IMG/VR virus record: IMGVR_UViG_3300043410_001305
Span: 1-34,030 of that record
Length of the DNA: 34,030 nt
Origin: a virus
Reading direction: 5' to 3' (one strand)
Shown here: positions 236 to 34,030 of the stretch, piece by piece
Layout of the letters: the number at the start of each line of letters is the position of its first letter
Position numbering within the stretch: position 1 is the stretch's first letter
The notes under the pieces: generated by a model
What the model saw: the letters and a program-made list of their open reading frames with translations, nothing else
Told to the model about the DNA's origin: nothing
Databases searched by the model: none
Program-made: the position numbers and the translations under genes

Positions 236-310
236 GGATAGCAATTATCACTATAATAACATACTAGTTTTTCATCAATAATGATAAATAAGTATATGGG
301 TGAATAACCC

Positions 311-404
311 AATGTTCATTTCTTATAGTCCAAATATGCGTTGGTTGCGCTAACAGCCAACGCCCTTCCTTAGCGGGTCGGTTTGAACACGAAATGAATA
401 CATT
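311..404 (+). ncRNA. Candidate structured leader RNA with pseudoknot
   Basis: The polymerase 5' leader can form an outer helix of 12 bp (311-322 with 391-398 and 401-404, two-base bulge), a second helix (328-329/387-388 and 331-335/381-385, one mismatch), and an inner 10-bp hairpin (338-347 with 354-363, one G-U). The inner loop CGCTAA (348-353) is exactly complementary to TTAGCG (370-375), six bases past the hairpin, giving an H-type pseudoknot. The segment is GC-rich beside its AT-rich surroundings. It ends 2 nt before the polymerase SD (AAGGA at 406-410). It matches no riboswitch class I can name. IncI-type plasmid rep leaders use a similar loop-to-downstream hexamer pairing to control rep translation. 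Confidence 0.6.
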
Positions 405-417
405 ATAAGGAACATTT

Positions 418-2121
418 ATGAACATAATTCAACAAATAACTATCAACGAACAGGTATATACAGCACTTGCTACTGCCTTTCCTAAATCTAATACTAGAAA
501 AGCATTAGATAGATACAAAACTGCATTAGAACAAGCAATCAAAACAGCCATCAGTAACGATCGTTACTTCCCAGCACTGAAATTATTCAGTATTTCTACA
601 AAAGAATTAATGAAAAAAGGAAAACAAATTGGTCCATATAATAAAAAAGTATGGTTACAATCTTGGTTAGAAAAAAATAATCTAAATTTATTCAAAATAG
701 TGGAAAAAGGTAATAATATATCTAAGAAAGTATCAGTAATTACATTTACAAATTTAGTAACATTGACTGATATCCAGGCTGAAATTGATGCAAAATATGA
801 ACAATTAAACCAACAACTGGAACCTAAAATGGCATACACAACTAACGACCATAATGAACAACGCATTCTATTAGAACAAGCACGTGAATTAGATGAATTA
901 TTATGTACTACAAATGAAAATATCTTTGTTACCACATACAGTGAATATTCTAATTGTGAATTTGATATTGTTCCAATTGATGTTCGTTCTTTATCTGCAT
1001 ATATTGATTGGGTATCAACATCTAATTATGATAATGAAAAAAAGAAAAAATACTTACGTCAAGCAAAATTCATATTAGCTATTGCCCAATATACTGGTGG
1101 TGAATTCCCACAACCTAAAAATCCATCTGTATTTGGTCGTATGTATTATCACGGTATTTCAATGCAAACAATCAATAAAGAAATGCGTTGTGCTTGCCTA
1201 GGTAATTCATATGAATATGATTTAAGCAATGCTGCTCCATCTTGGAAACTTGGTTATGCTAAACAATTCTTAGCTGATGCAAATATTACTGATGAAAATG
1301 CTGTTAGTGAATATTTTCCTGGATTATATTCTTATATTACTGCTAAAAAAGAATTTCGTGAAATACTTGCCAATGAAATCTTTGTTGGTACTGACTTAGA
1401 ATATGATTCTTTTGAAACACGTATGAAAGCAATTAAACAAGCTATGGCTGCCATTGGATTTGGTGCAAAAGTTCGTGAATTAACTTACAAAGTTGATGGG
1501 GTAAGATACTATGGTGCATTAAACGAAATTATTCGTAATAAAACTGCTAGAATACAATTCTTAAACCATCCTTTAATTGTTGCATATAATGATGAACAAC
1601 AAATTCTTGATGATTATATTATTTTAACATATAAAGAAAGTAATCCAGATTACAAAACTAATCCATTATTCAGAACTGAAAAACAATTCTGTAAATCTAA
1701 ACTACTAGCATACTTATTCCAATCATATGAAAAAATGGTTATGGATAAAATTGATGAAACTGTAACTAAAAATGGATTCACTGTTAAAGCAAGAATTCAC
1801 GATTCTATTGTATTAAATGCAAAACTACAAGATGAATTATCTATGTATGATGTTGATAAAGTATTGCAATCAATCAATCCATTTTTAAAATTAGATGAAT
1901 CAAAACTTGAAAAATGGAATAAAGTTATTGGTGCTAGTGTATCTGAACATCATAATAGAATGGCAAATGAGGAATTACGTGCTAGACAATATAAATCAAT
2001 GCACGTCTTACCATCTATTGAAATCGTACCAACTATGAATGAAATGGTAAATGAATGGTTTGATGTTAATGAAAAAGTAAATAAAAAACCACAATTAAGA
2101 TTACTTAAAAAAGCGGCATAA
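418..2121 (+). CDS. Divergent polymerase-fold protein (family A / single-subunit RNAP-like)
   Basis: This 567-aa protein is the first early gene, started by ATG with SD AAGGA 7 nt upstream. Motifs appear in family-A polymerase order: FGRMYY at 239-244 (compare the RGRVY of T7 RNAP), motif A YEYDLSN with Asp268, motif B KQAMAAIGFGAK with Lys340, Phe348 and Gly349, and motif C RIHDSI with His461-Asp462. The K-x7-aromatic-G spacing matches T7 RNAP (Lys631, Tyr639) and Pol I (Lys758, Tyr766). The A-B and B-C spacings, 72 and 122 residues, are nearer to Pol I than to T7 RNAP. No 3'-5' exonuclease signature was seen, and the N-terminal 235 residues are unassigned and partly coiled coil. It may be a replicative or priming DNA polymerase or a minimal RNA polymerase; the sequence alone does not decide. 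It is the only replication-type enzyme in the genome. Confidence 0.65.
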   Translation: MNIIQQITINEQVYTALATAFPKSNTRKALDRYKTALEQAIKTAISNDRYFPALKLFSISTKELMKKGKQIGPYNKKVWLQSWLEKNNLNLFKIVEKGNNISKKVSVITFTNLVTLTDIQAEIDAKYEQLNQQLEPKMAYTTNDHNEQRILLEQARELDELLCTTNENIFVTTYSEYSNCEFDIVPIDVRSLSAYIDWVSTSNYDNEKKKKYLRQAKFILAIAQYTGGEFPQPKNPSVFGRMYYHGISMQTINKEMRCACLGNSYEYDLSNAAPSWKLGYAKQFLADANITDENAVSEYFPGLYSYITAKKEFREILANEIFVGTDLEYDSFETRMKAIKQAMAAIGFGAKVRELTYKVDGVRYYGALNEIIRNKTARIQFLNHPLIVAYNDEQQILDDYIILTYKESNPDYKTNPLFRTEKQFCKSKLLAYLFQSYEKMVMDKIDETVTKNGFTVKARIHDSIVLNAKLQDELSMYDVDKVLQSINPFLKLDESKLEKWNKVIGASVSEHHNRMANEELRARQYKSMHVLPSIEIVPTMNEMVNEWFDVNEKVNKKPQLRLLKKAA

Positions 2122-3389: not shown

Positions 3390-3596
3390 TTATATCTTAA
3401 ATCCTTTATGACAAATATTACAATACTTACATCTTAAATAAAGATTATAACTAAATTTCTGATTACGCACTACTGCACCACAATCCAATTCACATACTGC
3501 AATTCTTGGATTCAATTTAAACCCAATAATTTCATTTGTATCCTTATCTATTCTAAATGTTCCAACTGTTCTAAGTTTTTCTTTTAAGTCTTTCAT
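3390..3596 (-). CDS. Small zinc-ribbon-like protein (68 aa)
   Basis: The last gene of the leftward unit. Cysteines occur in two clusters, CELDC (residues 35-39) and CKYCNIC near residues 56-62, followed by His-Lys-Gly-Phe, a spacing that fits a small zinc ribbon or knuckle. Its start lies inside the end of the HNH gene (26-nt overlap), suggesting coupled translation, and there is only a weak SD. Possible partner of the HNH protein; the molecular role is unknown. Confidence 0.65.
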   Translation of the reverse strand: MKDLKEKLRTVGTFRIDKDTNEIIGFKLNPRIAVCELDCGAVVRNQKFSYNLYLRCKYCNICHKGFKI

Positions 3597-3909
3597 TGCG
3601 TCTAAGTTCTTCTTGTCGTTTATTTAATTTCTTTCTACACCATTTCGGTAAATATTTCATTGGAATAGATTTATATCTTGAATGTTCGTGAAATGCTAAT
3701 ATTGCAAATATAAGATCTGGATGTTCTTTCCCATATATTTTTAATAATAACAGATGGGCAAAATAATGTTCTTTTATAGTTAATCTAACTACATCACTAT
3801 TATATCCACCTAAACATTTTGGTACTATATGATGTTGTTCAGTGTGCCCATCTTTTATTTCATTTTGTGCCTTAATAATTAAATTGTTGTATATTCTTGT
3901 ATAGTTCAT
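3571..3909 (-). CDS. HNH endonuclease (small, phage type)
   Basis: A 112-aa protein with the pattern EQHHIVPKCLGG (His26-His27), then VVRLTIKEHYFAHLLL (His48, His52), typical of short phage HNH nucleases with the HHIxPK...GG...LT..EH..AH arrangement. The C terminus is strongly basic and probably binds DNA. Such genes are often free-standing homing endonucleases that spread between phages. It overlaps the zinc-ribbon gene, which may be its companion. No conserved SD is obvious. Confidence 0.8.
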   Translation of the reverse strand: MNYTRIYNNLIIKAQNEIKDGHTEQHHIVPKCLGGYNSDVVRLTIKEHYFAHLLLLKIYGKEHPDLIFAILAFHEHSRYKSIPMKYLPKWCRKKLNKRQEELRRNERLKRKT

Positions 3910-4095: not shown

Positions 4096-4923
4096 TTATT
4101 CCTTTAATGATACATTATAATTTAATTCATTTGCTGTTTCTATAAACAACATAACTAATTCATTTAAACTAATTGATGGATTTCCAGCGGTATTTGATTT
4201 AACCTTATTGAAATCTATTTTTTTAAATACATCTAACACAAATTCTTTATGACTTTTAATAAAATAATTACTATTTCTACTTAGATAGGAATAATTACTA
4301 GTCTTAATATTACCAGCATATACACCTACACGTCTTACTGAAAAATCACATTTATCATTATCAACTATTTCAAAATATTCATTTAATTGATGGATTTTAT
4401 ATGTTGATATCTTATTACGCATAATATCTTTTTTTACCCATATTTGTGCACAACAAGTTGCATTGAATGATTCACCATTAAATATAAAACTATTATCTGG
4501 TACTATTTCATCATATATTAAATGAAAATGTTTATTCAATCTATTTACTACACTAGGTTTTCTAAATGTTCTAGGTAATATAAATGCAATTGCATCACTA
4601 AATTGTGCTGAATAATTAAAGAATTTAACTGCTAGTGATGAATTCTTACCAAATGGTGGATTACCAATTGTAATAGTTTTTATATTAGTTGGGTAATTCC
4701 AAGTAAGATAATCTTGTTCAATAATTTCATCAAACTTTGGATCTATATCTAATCCAATTCGTTTAGATTTATCTAAATTAAACAAGAAACTTCCACTACC
4801 TGCACTTGGTTCCACTATTAACTTATAATTTGATAATCCAAGTTTTGTATCTATGATATTAATAAATTCTTTGGCATAATTAGGATTAGTAAAGAATTGA
4901 TCTAATTTACGTGCAATTGACAT
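4096..4923 (-). CDS. DNA N6-adenine methyltransferase
   Basis: A 275-aa class I SAM-dependent methyltransferase. Motif X-like DQFFTNP is at residues 8-14, motif I (SAM binding) EPSAGSGSF at 38-46, an acidic residue after strand 2 (GLDIDP, Asp59), and catalytic motif IV GNPPF at 87-91, diagnostic of amino-methylating (mostly N6-adenine) enzymes. No restriction enzyme lies nearby, so it is an orphan methylase, probably protecting phage DNA from host restriction. The recognition site cannot be read from sequence. It follows the holin candidate by 3 nt. Confidence 0.9.
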   Translation of the reverse strand: MSIARKLDQFFTNPNYAKEFINIIDTKLGLSNYKLIVEPSAGSGSFLFNLDKSKRIGLDIDPKFDEIIEQDYLTWNYPTNIKTITIGNPPFGKNSSLAVKFFNYSAQFSDAIAFILPRTFRKPSVVNRLNKHFHLIYDEIVPDNSFIFNGESFNATCCAQIWVKKDIMRNKISTYKIHQLNEYFEIVDNDKCDFSVRRVGVYAGNIKTSNYSYLSRNSNYFIKSHKEFVLDVFKKIDFNKVKSNTAGNPSISLNELVMLFIETANELNYNVSLKE

Positions 4924-23188: not shown

Positions 23189-25207
23189 TTATCCTGATAC
23201 AGTCCAACCTTTTAATATTCCTATACTAGTATTTAATACTCTAAACACTAATGATGATGCACTTGCGGTTGATGTCATTGGTCTTGACATTGTAACACTA
23301 GTATTTGGAACTATTGCTGTAACAAGTGAATTATATCTCATTGTTCCAGTTCCATTTGTTGTTAATGCAACTACTGAACCTCCACTTGATGTTGATACTT
23401 GGAATGTATTAGTGGTTGAATTAATTACATAGTATGGTGTTCCAACAGTAATACCAGTTGTTGTTACAATAGTTGCAAATGAAACTATATCTCCATTAGA
23501 TAATCCGTGACTATTTAATGTTACAGTATCGCTAGTATCTTGAAAGGTTACTGCAATTGCGGTTGTTAAGGGGGTGCCAGTTCCAGTAACTTGCATCCCA
23601 ACAGTAATACCAGTTGTACTTGCCATTGTAATTGTTGTTGACCCAAGTGTTGTATTACTAGATAATGTTGCACTAGCACCACTTACAATAGTATTAGCAA
23701 AACTAAATGTTTGTGCCGTTGATACTGGTAATAAATTATTAAGCATTTTTTCAATTTCAGTAACAGTAAAAATACCATTAATAACTGTTGTATATTTTAC
23801 ATTATATATATCAATAGTTGTCGTTGATCCTGCTTGATTAAAACTAGATAATGCAACTGTATTAGATATTAAATTTAATGCTGGAATAGATGTTAATGCT
23901 CCATATGTATTAGCTGTACCATAAAACATATTAGCTACTGTTGTTGTTTTACTTGCATCAATTGCTGGAATTGATTGTAATAATGTACAATTTGAAAACA
24001 TACTACTCATATTTGTAACATTTGATGTATTTAATAATGGAATAGTTCTTAATGATGAACAAGACGAAAACATAGCTGCCATAGTTGTAACATTTGATGT
24101 ATTTAATAATGGAATAGTTAATAATTTAGAACATTGTTGAAACATAGATGCCATATCTGTTACTTTTGATGTATTAAATAATGGAATTAAATGTAAATAT
24201 GATTGTTGAAACATACTAGTCATAGTTGTAACATTTGATGTATTTAATAATGGAATAGTTCTTAATGATGAACATCCTTGAAACATACTACTCATATTTG
24301 TAACAGTTGATGTATTTAATAATGGAATAGTTTGTAATAATGTGCATCCATAAAACATATTACTCATATTAGTTACTTTACTTGTATTAAATAATGGAAT
24401 AGTTTTTAATGATGTACATTGATAAAACATACCAGTCATATTTGTAATATTCGATGTATCTGGTAATCTTATATATTTTAAACTTCCGCACCCTCGAAAG
24501 AAATTATCTAATGTTGTTAATTTAGGAATTGGTCCAATATATATATATTCTAATGTATTAGCGCCAAGCAATGGCCAAAATATTGATGAACAATTATTTA
24601 AATGTTTTATATAAAGTGATTTACAATATCCTGAAACTATTGCCCCTGATGATATACTAGAAATACTATTATCTAAAATTGTAATTTGTTCCAAGTAATA
24701 TAAAGATATAGCTACTGTGGAATTACCAACTGTAAATGATGTTAATGATGGAATATTTAATACAATATCCATCCATCCAACACCTAGTGAAACATATGAT
24801 ACTGAAACTGCTGAATGTCTTACGTGTAAATTAATAGATGTTAAAGTTTGACCTGATTGTGGTGTAATAGTAATAAATGCTTGTTTAAATGTTCCAGATT
24901 CATCTGATACTAATGTGGTATTAGATGTATCATATGTGGTATAATCATATTGATGTTGTGCGGTAACACCAGTTGCAATATTATCAACAGTTCCGTCACC
25001 CCAATCCACTGTATATGCACCAGAACAAGTTAATGCAACATAATTTCCGGCTTTATTTATTCTAAATAATCCAATTAATTTATTATCATTACTAATATTT
25101 GGCATAGGTAACCAATTTGCTGGGCGTTTCCATACCATTTGTTCAGTATTATTACTTGATAATGTTTTATTATTAATATTTCTTGTTGATGCATATCCAA
25201 CACTCAT
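23189..25207 (-). CDS. Virion adhesin with BspA-type leucine-rich repeats
   Basis: A 672-aa protein. Near residues 60-80 lies a PKD-like turn (SGAYTVDWGDGTVDN). Residues about 243-430 hold eight 24-residue BspA/DUF285-type repeats with consensus LxTIPLLNTSNVTNMSSMF followed by xxCSS. Near residues 550-620 is a beta-rich module (TVTLNSHGLSNGD, then YYVINSTTNTFQ) shared with the neighbouring 181-aa protein. BspA repeats are usual on bacterial surface proteins that bind host matrix or other cells. In a phage, flanked by fibre genes, they would serve surface or mucus binding. There is no signal peptide, fitting a virion protein. The start overlaps the stop of its neighbour. Confidence 0.75.
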   Translation of the reverse strand: MSVGYASTRNINNKTLSSNNTEQMVWKRPANWLPMPNISNDNKLIGLFRINKAGNYVALTCSGAYTVDWGDGTVDNIATGVTAQHQYDYTTYDTSNTTLVSDESGTFKQAFITITPQSGQTLTSINLHVRHSAVSVSYVSLGVGWMDIVLNIPSLTSFTVGNSTVAISLYYLEQITILDNSISSISSGAIVSGYCKSLYIKHLNNCSSIFWPLLGANTLEYIYIGPIPKLTTLDNFFRGCGSLKYIRLPDTSNITNMTGMFYQCTSLKTIPLFNTSKVTNMSNMFYGCTLLQTIPLLNTSTVTNMSSMFQGCSSLRTIPLLNTSNVTTMTSMFQQSYLHLIPLFNTSKVTDMASMFQQCSKLLTIPLLNTSNVTTMAAMFSSCSSLRTIPLLNTSNVTNMSSMFSNCTLLQSIPAIDASKTTTVANMFYGTANTYGALTSIPALNLISNTVALSSFNQAGSTTTIDIYNVKYTTVINGIFTVTEIEKMLNNLLPVSTAQTFSFANTIVSGASATLSSNTTLGSTTITMASTTGITVGMQVTGTGTPLTTAIAVTFQDTSDTVTLNSHGLSNGDIVSFATIVTTTGITVGTPYYVINSTTNTFQVSTSSGGSVVALTTNGTGTMRYNSLVTAIVPNTSVTMSRPMTSTASASSLVFRVLNTSIGILKGWTVSG
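23905..24480 (-). repeat. 72-bp tandem repeats (BspA leucine-rich repeats)
   Basis: Eight consecutive units of about 72 bp, each encoding 24 residues, with several units near-identical at the DNA level (for example TTGATGTATTTAATAATGG recurs on the plus strand). Uniform length keeps the reading frame, so unit number can vary by recombination. Confidence 0.85.
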
Positions 25208-32650: not shown

Positions 32651-33130
32651 TTAGTAAGTATTTCCACTATATAGTTCACGTCTCATCTGTATACATTTAG
32701 CTTGTGCTTGTTCTACTGTTGGGAAATATCCTCCGTGAATATGATTTCCATTAACCATTAATGATACACGATATGGATTAGTTTTATTTGTTTTACATAA
32801 GTATAATCCTGGGATATCACTAATGCTATTTCTTGCTTTACTATTTTGTGCATTTTCTTGAATGGTCACTAAACGTAAATTTTCAATGCGGTTATCAGTT
32901 TTATTTCTATTGATATGGTCGATGCATTTTGTGTTATCAATATCACCGTAATACATAATCCACGCTGCTCTATGGGCGAGTAGTGTTTTTCCGATATTTC
33001 CGATTCTTACTTTAATATAGATATATCTGCTTTTAGTTGTTGATGCTTTTCTACCAGTAATTTTGTTGGTGAATTCACCTGTTTCTGGGTTGTAATTGAA
33101 TGTGTTGTTAAGTGCTCTAAATAAGTTCAT
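32651..33130 (-). CDS. HNH homing-type endonuclease with AP2-like domain
   Basis: 159 aa from the ATG at 33128-33130, which has SD GGAG 9 nt upstream; the longer frame from a TTG lacks a good SD. The HNH_3-type core is LLAHRAAWIMYYGDI (His53), then CIDHINRNKTDNRIENLRLV (Asp71-His72, Asn84), followed by an AP2-like DNA-binding region (about 106-150, GLYLCKTNKTNPYRVSLMV...GGYFPTVEQA). Such genes are mobile and often sit next to terminase genes, but this domain mix is that of free-standing homing nucleases. Confidence 0.85.
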   Translation of the reverse strand: MNLFRALNNTFNYNPETGEFTNKITGRKASTTKSRYIYIKVRIGNIGKTLLAHRAAWIMYYGDIDNTKCIDHINRNKTDNRIENLRLVTIQENAQNSKARNSISDIPGLYLCKTNKTNPYRVSLMVNGNHIHGGYFPTVEQAQAKCIQMRRELYSGNTY

Positions 33131-33151
33131 TTTTATATTCTCCAAAATATA

Positions 33152-33547: not shown

Positions 33548-33566
33548 GTTCATTGTATATTCTCTG

Positions 33567-33600
33567 AAACCTCATAGTACTACTATTATGGGGTTTTTTT
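33567..33600 (+). terminator. Rightward intrinsic terminator inside the leftward leader
   Basis: AAACCTCATA pairs with TATGGGGTTT (10 bp with one G-U) across a 10-nt loop, running into seven T residues. It works on the plus strand only; leftward transcripts read it without a T-run. It would stop rightward transcripts before the promoter boxes at 33789, or end a short antisense RNA. Confidence 0.75.
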
Positions 33601-33750: not shown

Positions 33751-33772
33751 ATTACTATAAGGGTGTGCATAT
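33751..33772 (-). promoter_or_regulatory. TATAGT-type promoter-like box, leftward
   Basis: On the minus strand ATATGCACACCCT followed by TATAGTAAT, nearly identical to the rightward box at 79-100 (33982-34003). It faces the 30-kb leftward unit, about 350 nt before its first gene, and is its best promoter candidate. Confidence 0.55.
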
Positions 33773-33788
33773 TTTTATTATTTTCAAG

Positions 33789-33815
33789 ATATGCACACCC
33801 TGTGATATAATGCGG
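33789..33815 (+). promoter_or_regulatory. Extended -10 promoter box 1 (rightward)
   Basis: ATATGCACACCCT, then GTGATATAAT (TGA plus TATAAT at 33806-33811) and GCGG. A perfect extended -10 for the host vegetative sigma factor; no -35 is visible. It forms an inverted pair with the leftward box at 33751-33772, sharing the 13-bp ATATGCACACCCT head to head. Confidence 0.65.
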
Positions 33816-33840
33816 GTTCCAGGGCATACCTAATTAAGAA

Positions 33841-33867
33841 ATATACACACCCTGTGGTATAATGCGG
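33841..33867 (+). promoter_or_regulatory. Extended -10 promoter box 2 (rightward)
   Basis: ATATACACACCCT, then GTGGTATAAT (TATAAT at 33858-33863) and GCGG. One change in the left part and one in the extended -10 compared with box 1. It is 52 bp from box 1. Confidence 0.65.
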
Positions 33868-33902
33868 CCTGTGGGCCATCTAAAAAGTTACATATTCATA
33901 AA

Positions 33903-33929
33903 ATATGCACACCCTGTGATATAATGCGG
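33903..33929 (+). promoter_or_regulatory. Extended -10 promoter box 3 (rightward)
   Basis: ATATGCACACCCT, GTGATATAAT (TATAAT at 33920-33925) and GCGG. 62 bp from box 2 and about 75 bp before the TATAGT box. Also seen at the left end of the window, with its -10 at 17-22. Confidence 0.65.
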
Positions 33930-34030
33930 GTTCCAAGGCATACTGTCAAATATTATGCGTATAGGATGTCTATATTCTAAAATATGCACACTCTTATAGT
34001 AACTTCTTCTTGTTAGTTAGTTGTTGTTGG
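33904..34030. repeat. Direct terminal repeat, right copy
   Basis: Identical to bases 1-127. Joining the two copies makes 33401-33903 and 1-417 one continuous gene-free control region of about 920 bp between the divergent transcription units. Confidence 0.95.

Follow-up and report, generated by a model that had tools for sequence, protein, structure and literature searches.

In bacteriophage T4, gp43 and gp32 each act as a translational repressor of their own gene; the gp43 site is a hairpin about 40 nt before the start codon, and the gp32 site is a pseudoknot 67 nt before it (PMC3014915). The loop of the T4/RB69 gene 43 operator carries UAAC, and T4 gene e is a precedent for promoter-dependent masking (PMC3014915). 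A review of T4 describes the gene 32 pseudoknot as possibly the sole viral pseudoknot in translational autoregulation (PMC3014915). For replication genes, there are also precedents for plasmid-type antisense control (PMC10724649, PMC8125031). In IncL/M plasmids, the antisense target lies within the leader ORF repB (PMC8125031).

The locus described here is the leader of a probable phage replication gene, in which a candidate pseudoknot RNA had been proposed at 311-404. The leader is real and strongly folded, and is probably regulatory. A structured leader capable of translational control is supported by the folding statistics and the anatomy; antisense control is left without a good promoter or terminator.

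The phage and its probable replication gene

The window is the whole virus record IMGVR_UViG_3300043410_001305, which has 34,030 bases, 30.5% GC and a 127-bp direct terminal repeat at its ends. The phage encodes an SU10-type portal and major capsid protein, a terminase and further virion genes. Almost without exception, the virion genes lie between 33.4 and 3.5 kb and read from the minus strand. Among them, a minus-strand gene (23189-25207) has a 672-aa product with repeats of the DUF285 family, which is known from surface proteins of Mycoplasma. The plus strand contains just three sizeable genes (0.4-3.0 kb), the first of which lies behind the leader and is the only recognisable replication gene of the phage.

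418-2121, plus strand: replication gene, encoding a 567-aa, probably polymerase-like and diverged protein (homologues at 29-34% identity; motifs YDLSN, FGA and HD)
33779-33943, plus strand: three tandem 51-nt repeats, directed towards the gene, with perfect extended -10 elements (TGnTATAAT)

The third promoter repeat recurs at 1-40 through the terminal repeat. A nearer plus-strand promoter, at about 252, is without a good -35. Five copies of ATAT(G/A)CACA (four direct, one inverted), each one base off a DnaA box, are present at 33752-34002 and 1-91. These copies lie within the three tandem promoter repeats and are flanked by a 24-nt inverted repeat; the region, which adjoins the replication gene, resembles an origin of the iteron type. 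Near the terminal repeat, a 14-bp stem followed by T-rich sequence (33566-33597) is a likely transcription terminator. The minus-strand genes that flank the replication module encode a protein that weakly matches DNA methyltransferases and two products like homing or HNH endonucleases (4096-4923, 3571-3909 and 32651-33145).

The initial annotation had called the downstream gene a polymerase. This name is based on motifs only: those conserved in the family (RhYY..G..hQ, hEYD, K...hh.FGA, Q..E and HD) are similar to motifs A, B and C of the palm domain of polymerases. The 567-aa protein matches nothing in PDB, Pfam, NCBIfam or PHROG, and a 4-member profile does no better. The resemblance to palm domains is not confirmed in profile searches of PDB and Pfam, and the protein contains no recognisable DNA_pol_A domain (family A DNA polymerase). 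It is likewise without a Pfam or NCBIfam match to a RepA/RepZ-type initiator. The predicted structure has a pLDDT of 35 alone and 57 with three rows, and this low-confidence model, too poor for a meaningful fold comparison, is without a PDB fold match. The motifs, the plasmid context and the position of the gene point to a replication protein that is probably polymerase-like.

A single-protein search of IMG/VR, GTDB, phages and plasmids returns no homologues of the gene. Weak matches (E 0.06-2) lead to the Polaromonas plasmids pW9NP1 and pH8NP1 (22-24% identity), and in pW9NP1 the family gene is directly upstream of a RepA_C gene. In a profile search, the protein family is present in 10 of 401 genomes (Burkholderiales-type) from the taxonomic family of a Rhodoferax MAG. 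Full-length relatives are 29-34% identical and one truncated homologue is on another viral contig; a wider class-level search for relatives returns nothing more. An unannotated family of probably polymerase-like replication proteins, absent from Pfam, PHROGs and NCBIfam, has members in this phage, in plasmids of Polaromonas, in Burkholderiales-type genomes and in another virus (L026, L027, L035, L036, L037 and L044).

A relative of the phage that is syntenic in the virion genes (portal 61% and terminase 64% identical) has an unrelated protein at L003:1-1884 in place of 418-2121. The motifs of this protein look primase-like in our reading. This pattern is interpreted as a swap of the replication module. 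In the syntenic relative G001, the contig begins inside its different replication gene.

Structure of the leader

The elements of the leader are listed below in order of their first position.

297-311, plus strand: small hairpin TGGGT-GAATA-ACCCA over the SD-like sequence of the leader ORF (pair probability 0.8-1.0)
312-329, plus strand: 5' side of the long-range helix that masks the RBS (312-319/418-425 with 320-329/402-411; probability about 0.93-0.99 in transcripts from 264 or 291)
312-353, plus strand: possible leader ORF, MFISYSPNMRWLR and stop, with SD-like GGGTGA at 298-303
313-322, plus strand: 5' arm of the alternative outer helix, which leaves the SD out
338-363, plus strand: stable hairpin GCGTTGGTTG-CGCTAA-CAGCCAACGC
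348-353, plus strand: loop hexamer CGCTAA, which contains the leader-ORF stop TAA (351-353)
366-372, plus strand: anti-SD TTCCTTA, a 7-nt perfect complement of TAAGGAA at 406-412
370-375, plus strand: TTAGCG, candidate second strand of a pseudoknot
391-400, plus strand: 3' arm of the alternative outer helix
402-425, plus strand: region where translation of the replication gene starts, with the SD (AAGGA) at 407-411 and the ATG at 418; also the 3' arm of the masking helix

The hairpin is confirmed. Its helix (338-347/354-363), proposed earlier as the innermost of three, contains 10 pairs (9 Watson-Crick and one G-U) and has a pair probability of about 1 in all contexts tested. At -15.2 kcal/mol, it ranks third among the 68,008 26-nt windows on both strands, 3 of which fold this well; of 300 shuffles of the leader, 1 does so too. 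The leader as a whole is unusually structured, as had been suggested. The folding energy of 291-430 is -39.1 vs. -26.4 +/- 3.4 in shuffles (z = -3.8), and none of 500 shuffles is as good. Nor does the leader fit any known riboswitch class: none of the Rfam covariance models reaches its gathering score, and the best chance matches have E values of 1.6 and 6.1 (E<=10). A known riboswitch is dismissed on this result. An intrinsic terminator or attenuator is ruled out because both strands are without a U-tract after the hairpin.

The exact six-base match between the loop and TTAGCG, also proposed earlier, holds up, with a local P of 0.0063 (0.63%) when the 54 nt downstream of the hairpin are shuffled. 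It is weakened by comparison with the rest of the genome, where 7 of 119 hairpins with loops of at least 6 nt also have six loop bases complemented within 54 nt on the 3' side. Because these hairpins have an equal match, the hexamer match is suggestive only. The two hexamers are 16 nt apart. In the full pseudoknot, all six loop bases would be consumed, loop 1 would be 0 nt long and loop 3 would span the 10-bp stem with 6 nt (364-369). By standard pseudoknot geometry, such a fold would be sterically tight; leaving C348-G375 open (5 bp, 1-nt loop 1) would ease it. The isolated hexamer duplex has an energy of -5.6 kcal/mol and the five-pair version -3.2 kcal/mol, and the knot would therefore be marginal without tertiary help. 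The loop-distal pseudoknot is plausible but unproven, and its formation is doubtful.

Two further elements are absent from the initial annotation. One is the putative leader ORF, which has 13 codons (ATG at 312 to TAA at 353) and a stop codon inside the hairpin loop. The distance from its end to the start codon of the replication gene is 64 nt. The ORF may be a chance occurrence. The other is the anti-SD at 366-372, which shares 370-372 with the candidate pseudoknot strand. Occupation of either 291-365 or 300-366 lets it pair with the SD.

The long-range pairing of the leader depends on where the transcript starts. The earlier outer helix (311-322/391-404) is effectively 313-322/391-400. It is preferred in transcripts from position 29, just past the strong upstream promoter, with a probability of 0.55 (37 C) to 0.89 (15 C), but falls to 0.01-0.04 in the short transcripts from 264 or 291. 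The middle helix (328-335/381-388) likewise persists only in part, with a probability of 0.33-0.80 in long RNA vs. 0.02-0.04 in short RNA; it contains a C330.A386 mismatch and one G-U pair. The SD, which the proposed helices stop just short of, is not simply exposed. In short transcripts, the start codon pairs with 312-319 and the SD with 320-329, and the SD has an open probability of about 0.02 in the free leader. In the long transcript (start 29), the SD is still about 85% paired. SD bases 410-411 are open only when both the upstream arm and 370-375 are removed; the other SD bases stay covered by a short local hairpin.

RBS masking as such is not unusual: opening the start region costs 4.9 kcal/mol, a value close to the middle of the range among the genes of this phage, and 81 of 300 upstream shuffles reach it. 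Masking was dropped as a striking feature after this comparison.

Related leaders are absent from the collections searched, and this is the weak point of a regulatory reading. Compared as DNA with phages, plasmids and IMG/VR, the leader has no copy and no relevant match. A gapped pattern of the hairpin and TTAGCG has two matches, each within coding regions. In the leaders of the gene relatives, there is no hairpin with a 3' loop complement, except for GC-rich coding sequence in L027. The region upstream of the family gene in pH8NP1 contains no comparable leader, and the pW9NP1 record starts within the upstream region.

Proposed translational control and alternative explanations

The reading that is tentatively preferred, with somewhat less than even confidence, is that the 94-nt stretch belongs to a leader RNA through which translation of the replication protein is controlled in cis. 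This control would be off by default and is most likely autogenous. By default, the start region would be buried through pairing of 312-329 with 402-425. The mutually exclusive alternative, 313-322/391-400, would leave the SD and start codon out. Once the upstream arm is occupied, the second anti-SD (366-372) would seize the SD. A ribosome on the leader ORF or a longer transcript would lift the upstream mask, and pairing of 348-353 with 370-375 would destroy the second anti-SD, which would remove the second mask and turn the gene on. The regulator would most likely be the replication protein, which would bind the hairpin and repress translation when in excess. This is the least certain step. 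An autogenous regulator is favoured because it needs no further part and has precedents in T4 gp43 and gene 32.

The evidence counted for the switch consists of the z-score of -3.8, the rank of the hairpin, the hexamer P of 0.0063, the double SD mask, the start-dependent fold, the tandem promoters and the T4 precedents. Counted against it are the ordinary cost of masking, the lack of a similar leader in homologues, the tight pseudoknot, the 7 of 119 hairpins with a comparable match and the lack of a sequence relation between the 567-aa protein and T4 gp43. A ribosome at the stop codon of the leader ORF would itself block the loop, and this too is counted against the switch.

Several of the same observations are compatible with an ordinary strong 5' stem-loop that acts in mRNA stability, as an RNase site or as a DNA-level origin element; the match between the hexamers and the leader ORF would then both be coincidental. 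An equal loop complement is found in 7 of 119 hairpins, a 13-codon ORF easily arises by chance, masking is not above that of shuffles, there is no conservation and DnaA-box-like repeats adjoin the region. This explanation is unlikely on balance; the strength of the hairpin and the overall fold are well above shuffles, and the hairpin lies precisely in the leader of the one gene recognisable as a replication gene. The dependence of the fold on the transcript start has its own possible explanation, in which long and short transcripts fold differently, as in T4 gene e, and promoter timing sets expression without a pseudoknot or ligand. The outer helix has a probability of 0.55-0.89 from start 29 vs. 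0.01-0.04 from start 264, and three strong tandem promoters are upstream, with T4 as a precedent (PMC3014915). However, the SD is about 85% paired in the long transcript as well, the nearer promoter (about 252) is without a good -35 and the hairpin is left unexplained. Control by promoter choice alone is quite improbable.

Plasmid-type antisense control by the IncI/IncB/IncL-M logic is also improbable. Here, a minus-strand RNA from near 395 would cover the hairpin, kiss the loop, block the pseudoknot and keep the gene off. It would start from the following element.

402-407, minus strand: TATAAT, possible weak antisense promoter (TTGAAT 19 nt upstream), not among the promoters of the scan

The distal TTAGCG is the loop that an antisense hairpin would display, the minus strand contains TATAAT at 407-402, a leader ORF is present and the gene has plasmid relatives. 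The CUAA and UUAG loops fit, in our reading, the YUNR form, a motif known from plasmid antisense loops. The minus strand opposite the leader, however, has only this -10 with a poor -35 (TTGAAT, 19-nt spacer) that is absent from the promoter scan, and it is without a U-tract terminator past the hairpin. The order and spacing are unlike those of ColIb-P9, and there is no IncI-type rep gene.

The tentatively preferred translational switch has a more specific form, which is speculative and improbable. In this form, the tailed phage would have a replicon that is compact and plasmid-like, with origin repeats, tandem promoters and one diverged polymerase-like replication protein, and its pseudoknot switch would have evolved independently. 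The loop that bears the stop codon would pair downstream and destroy the anti-SD, which would couple replication control to translation of the leader peptide. If the switch operates in this way, the phage would control its replication protein by plasmid copy-number logic. The protein family of this replicon lies outside Pfam and PHROGs. A second, unrelated viral autoregulatory pseudoknot would be useful because the gene 32 case is possibly the only one (PMC3014915).

Comparison with known systems

The T4 gene 43 operator and the phage leader both contain a hairpin in the leader of a replication gene and both contain UAAC, which in the phage lies across 351-354. The T4 hairpin is 16-18 nt and its operator reaches the RBS, whereas the phage hairpin is 26 nt and lies 55-80 nt upstream. 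The phage protein is unrelated to gp43 by sequence and the phage leader is only a candidate operator. The T4 gene 32 leader shares with the phage leader an H-type pseudoknot, which is a candidate in the phage, and in T4 this is followed by A+U-rich sequence to the RBS. Unlike the gene 32 leader, the phage leader has a 10-bp stem and a loop whose bases would all be consumed, and its gene is not an SSB gene.

The Polaromonas plasmids pW9NP1 and pH8NP1 contain a gene of the same protein family as the phage gene. The identity is low (22-24%) and pH8NP1 is without a comparable leader upstream.

The parallel with plasmids of the IncI, IncB and IncL type, drawn in the initial annotation, is one of logic only. 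The leader of repYZ in ColIb-P9 (IncI-alpha) and its IncB and IncL/M relatives share with the phage a loop paired with a distal complement, a leader ORF, a downstream replication gene and a second mask of the SD. The phage has a loop hexamer with an exact 6-nt complement upstream of the SD of the replication gene; it has neither a coupled leader ORF that spans the SD mask nor a RepA/RepZ-type initiator. The parallel does not extend to order or spacing. In ColIb-P9, the order is stem-loop, repY and distal strand, and the hexamers are about 110 nt apart; in the phage, the leader ORF comes first, followed by the hairpin, the distal strand and the SD, and the distance is 16 nt. The ColIb-P9 repY (378-467) overlaps the rep start, whereas the phage ORF ends in the hairpin loop. 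The phage is also without a convincing antisense RNA and its replication protein is unrelated. An identity with the IncI hexamers, as CGCCAA/UUGGCG, is rejected: in the ColIb-P9 sequence, the loop TTGGCG(GA) pairs with (T)CCGCCA, and the resemblance of the phage hexamer is therefore loose. Because the order differs, the minus-strand promoter is weak and there is no terminator, the leader is a member of none of these systems, although it may work like them. The phage leader would represent a known kind of control and possibly a new variant of it.
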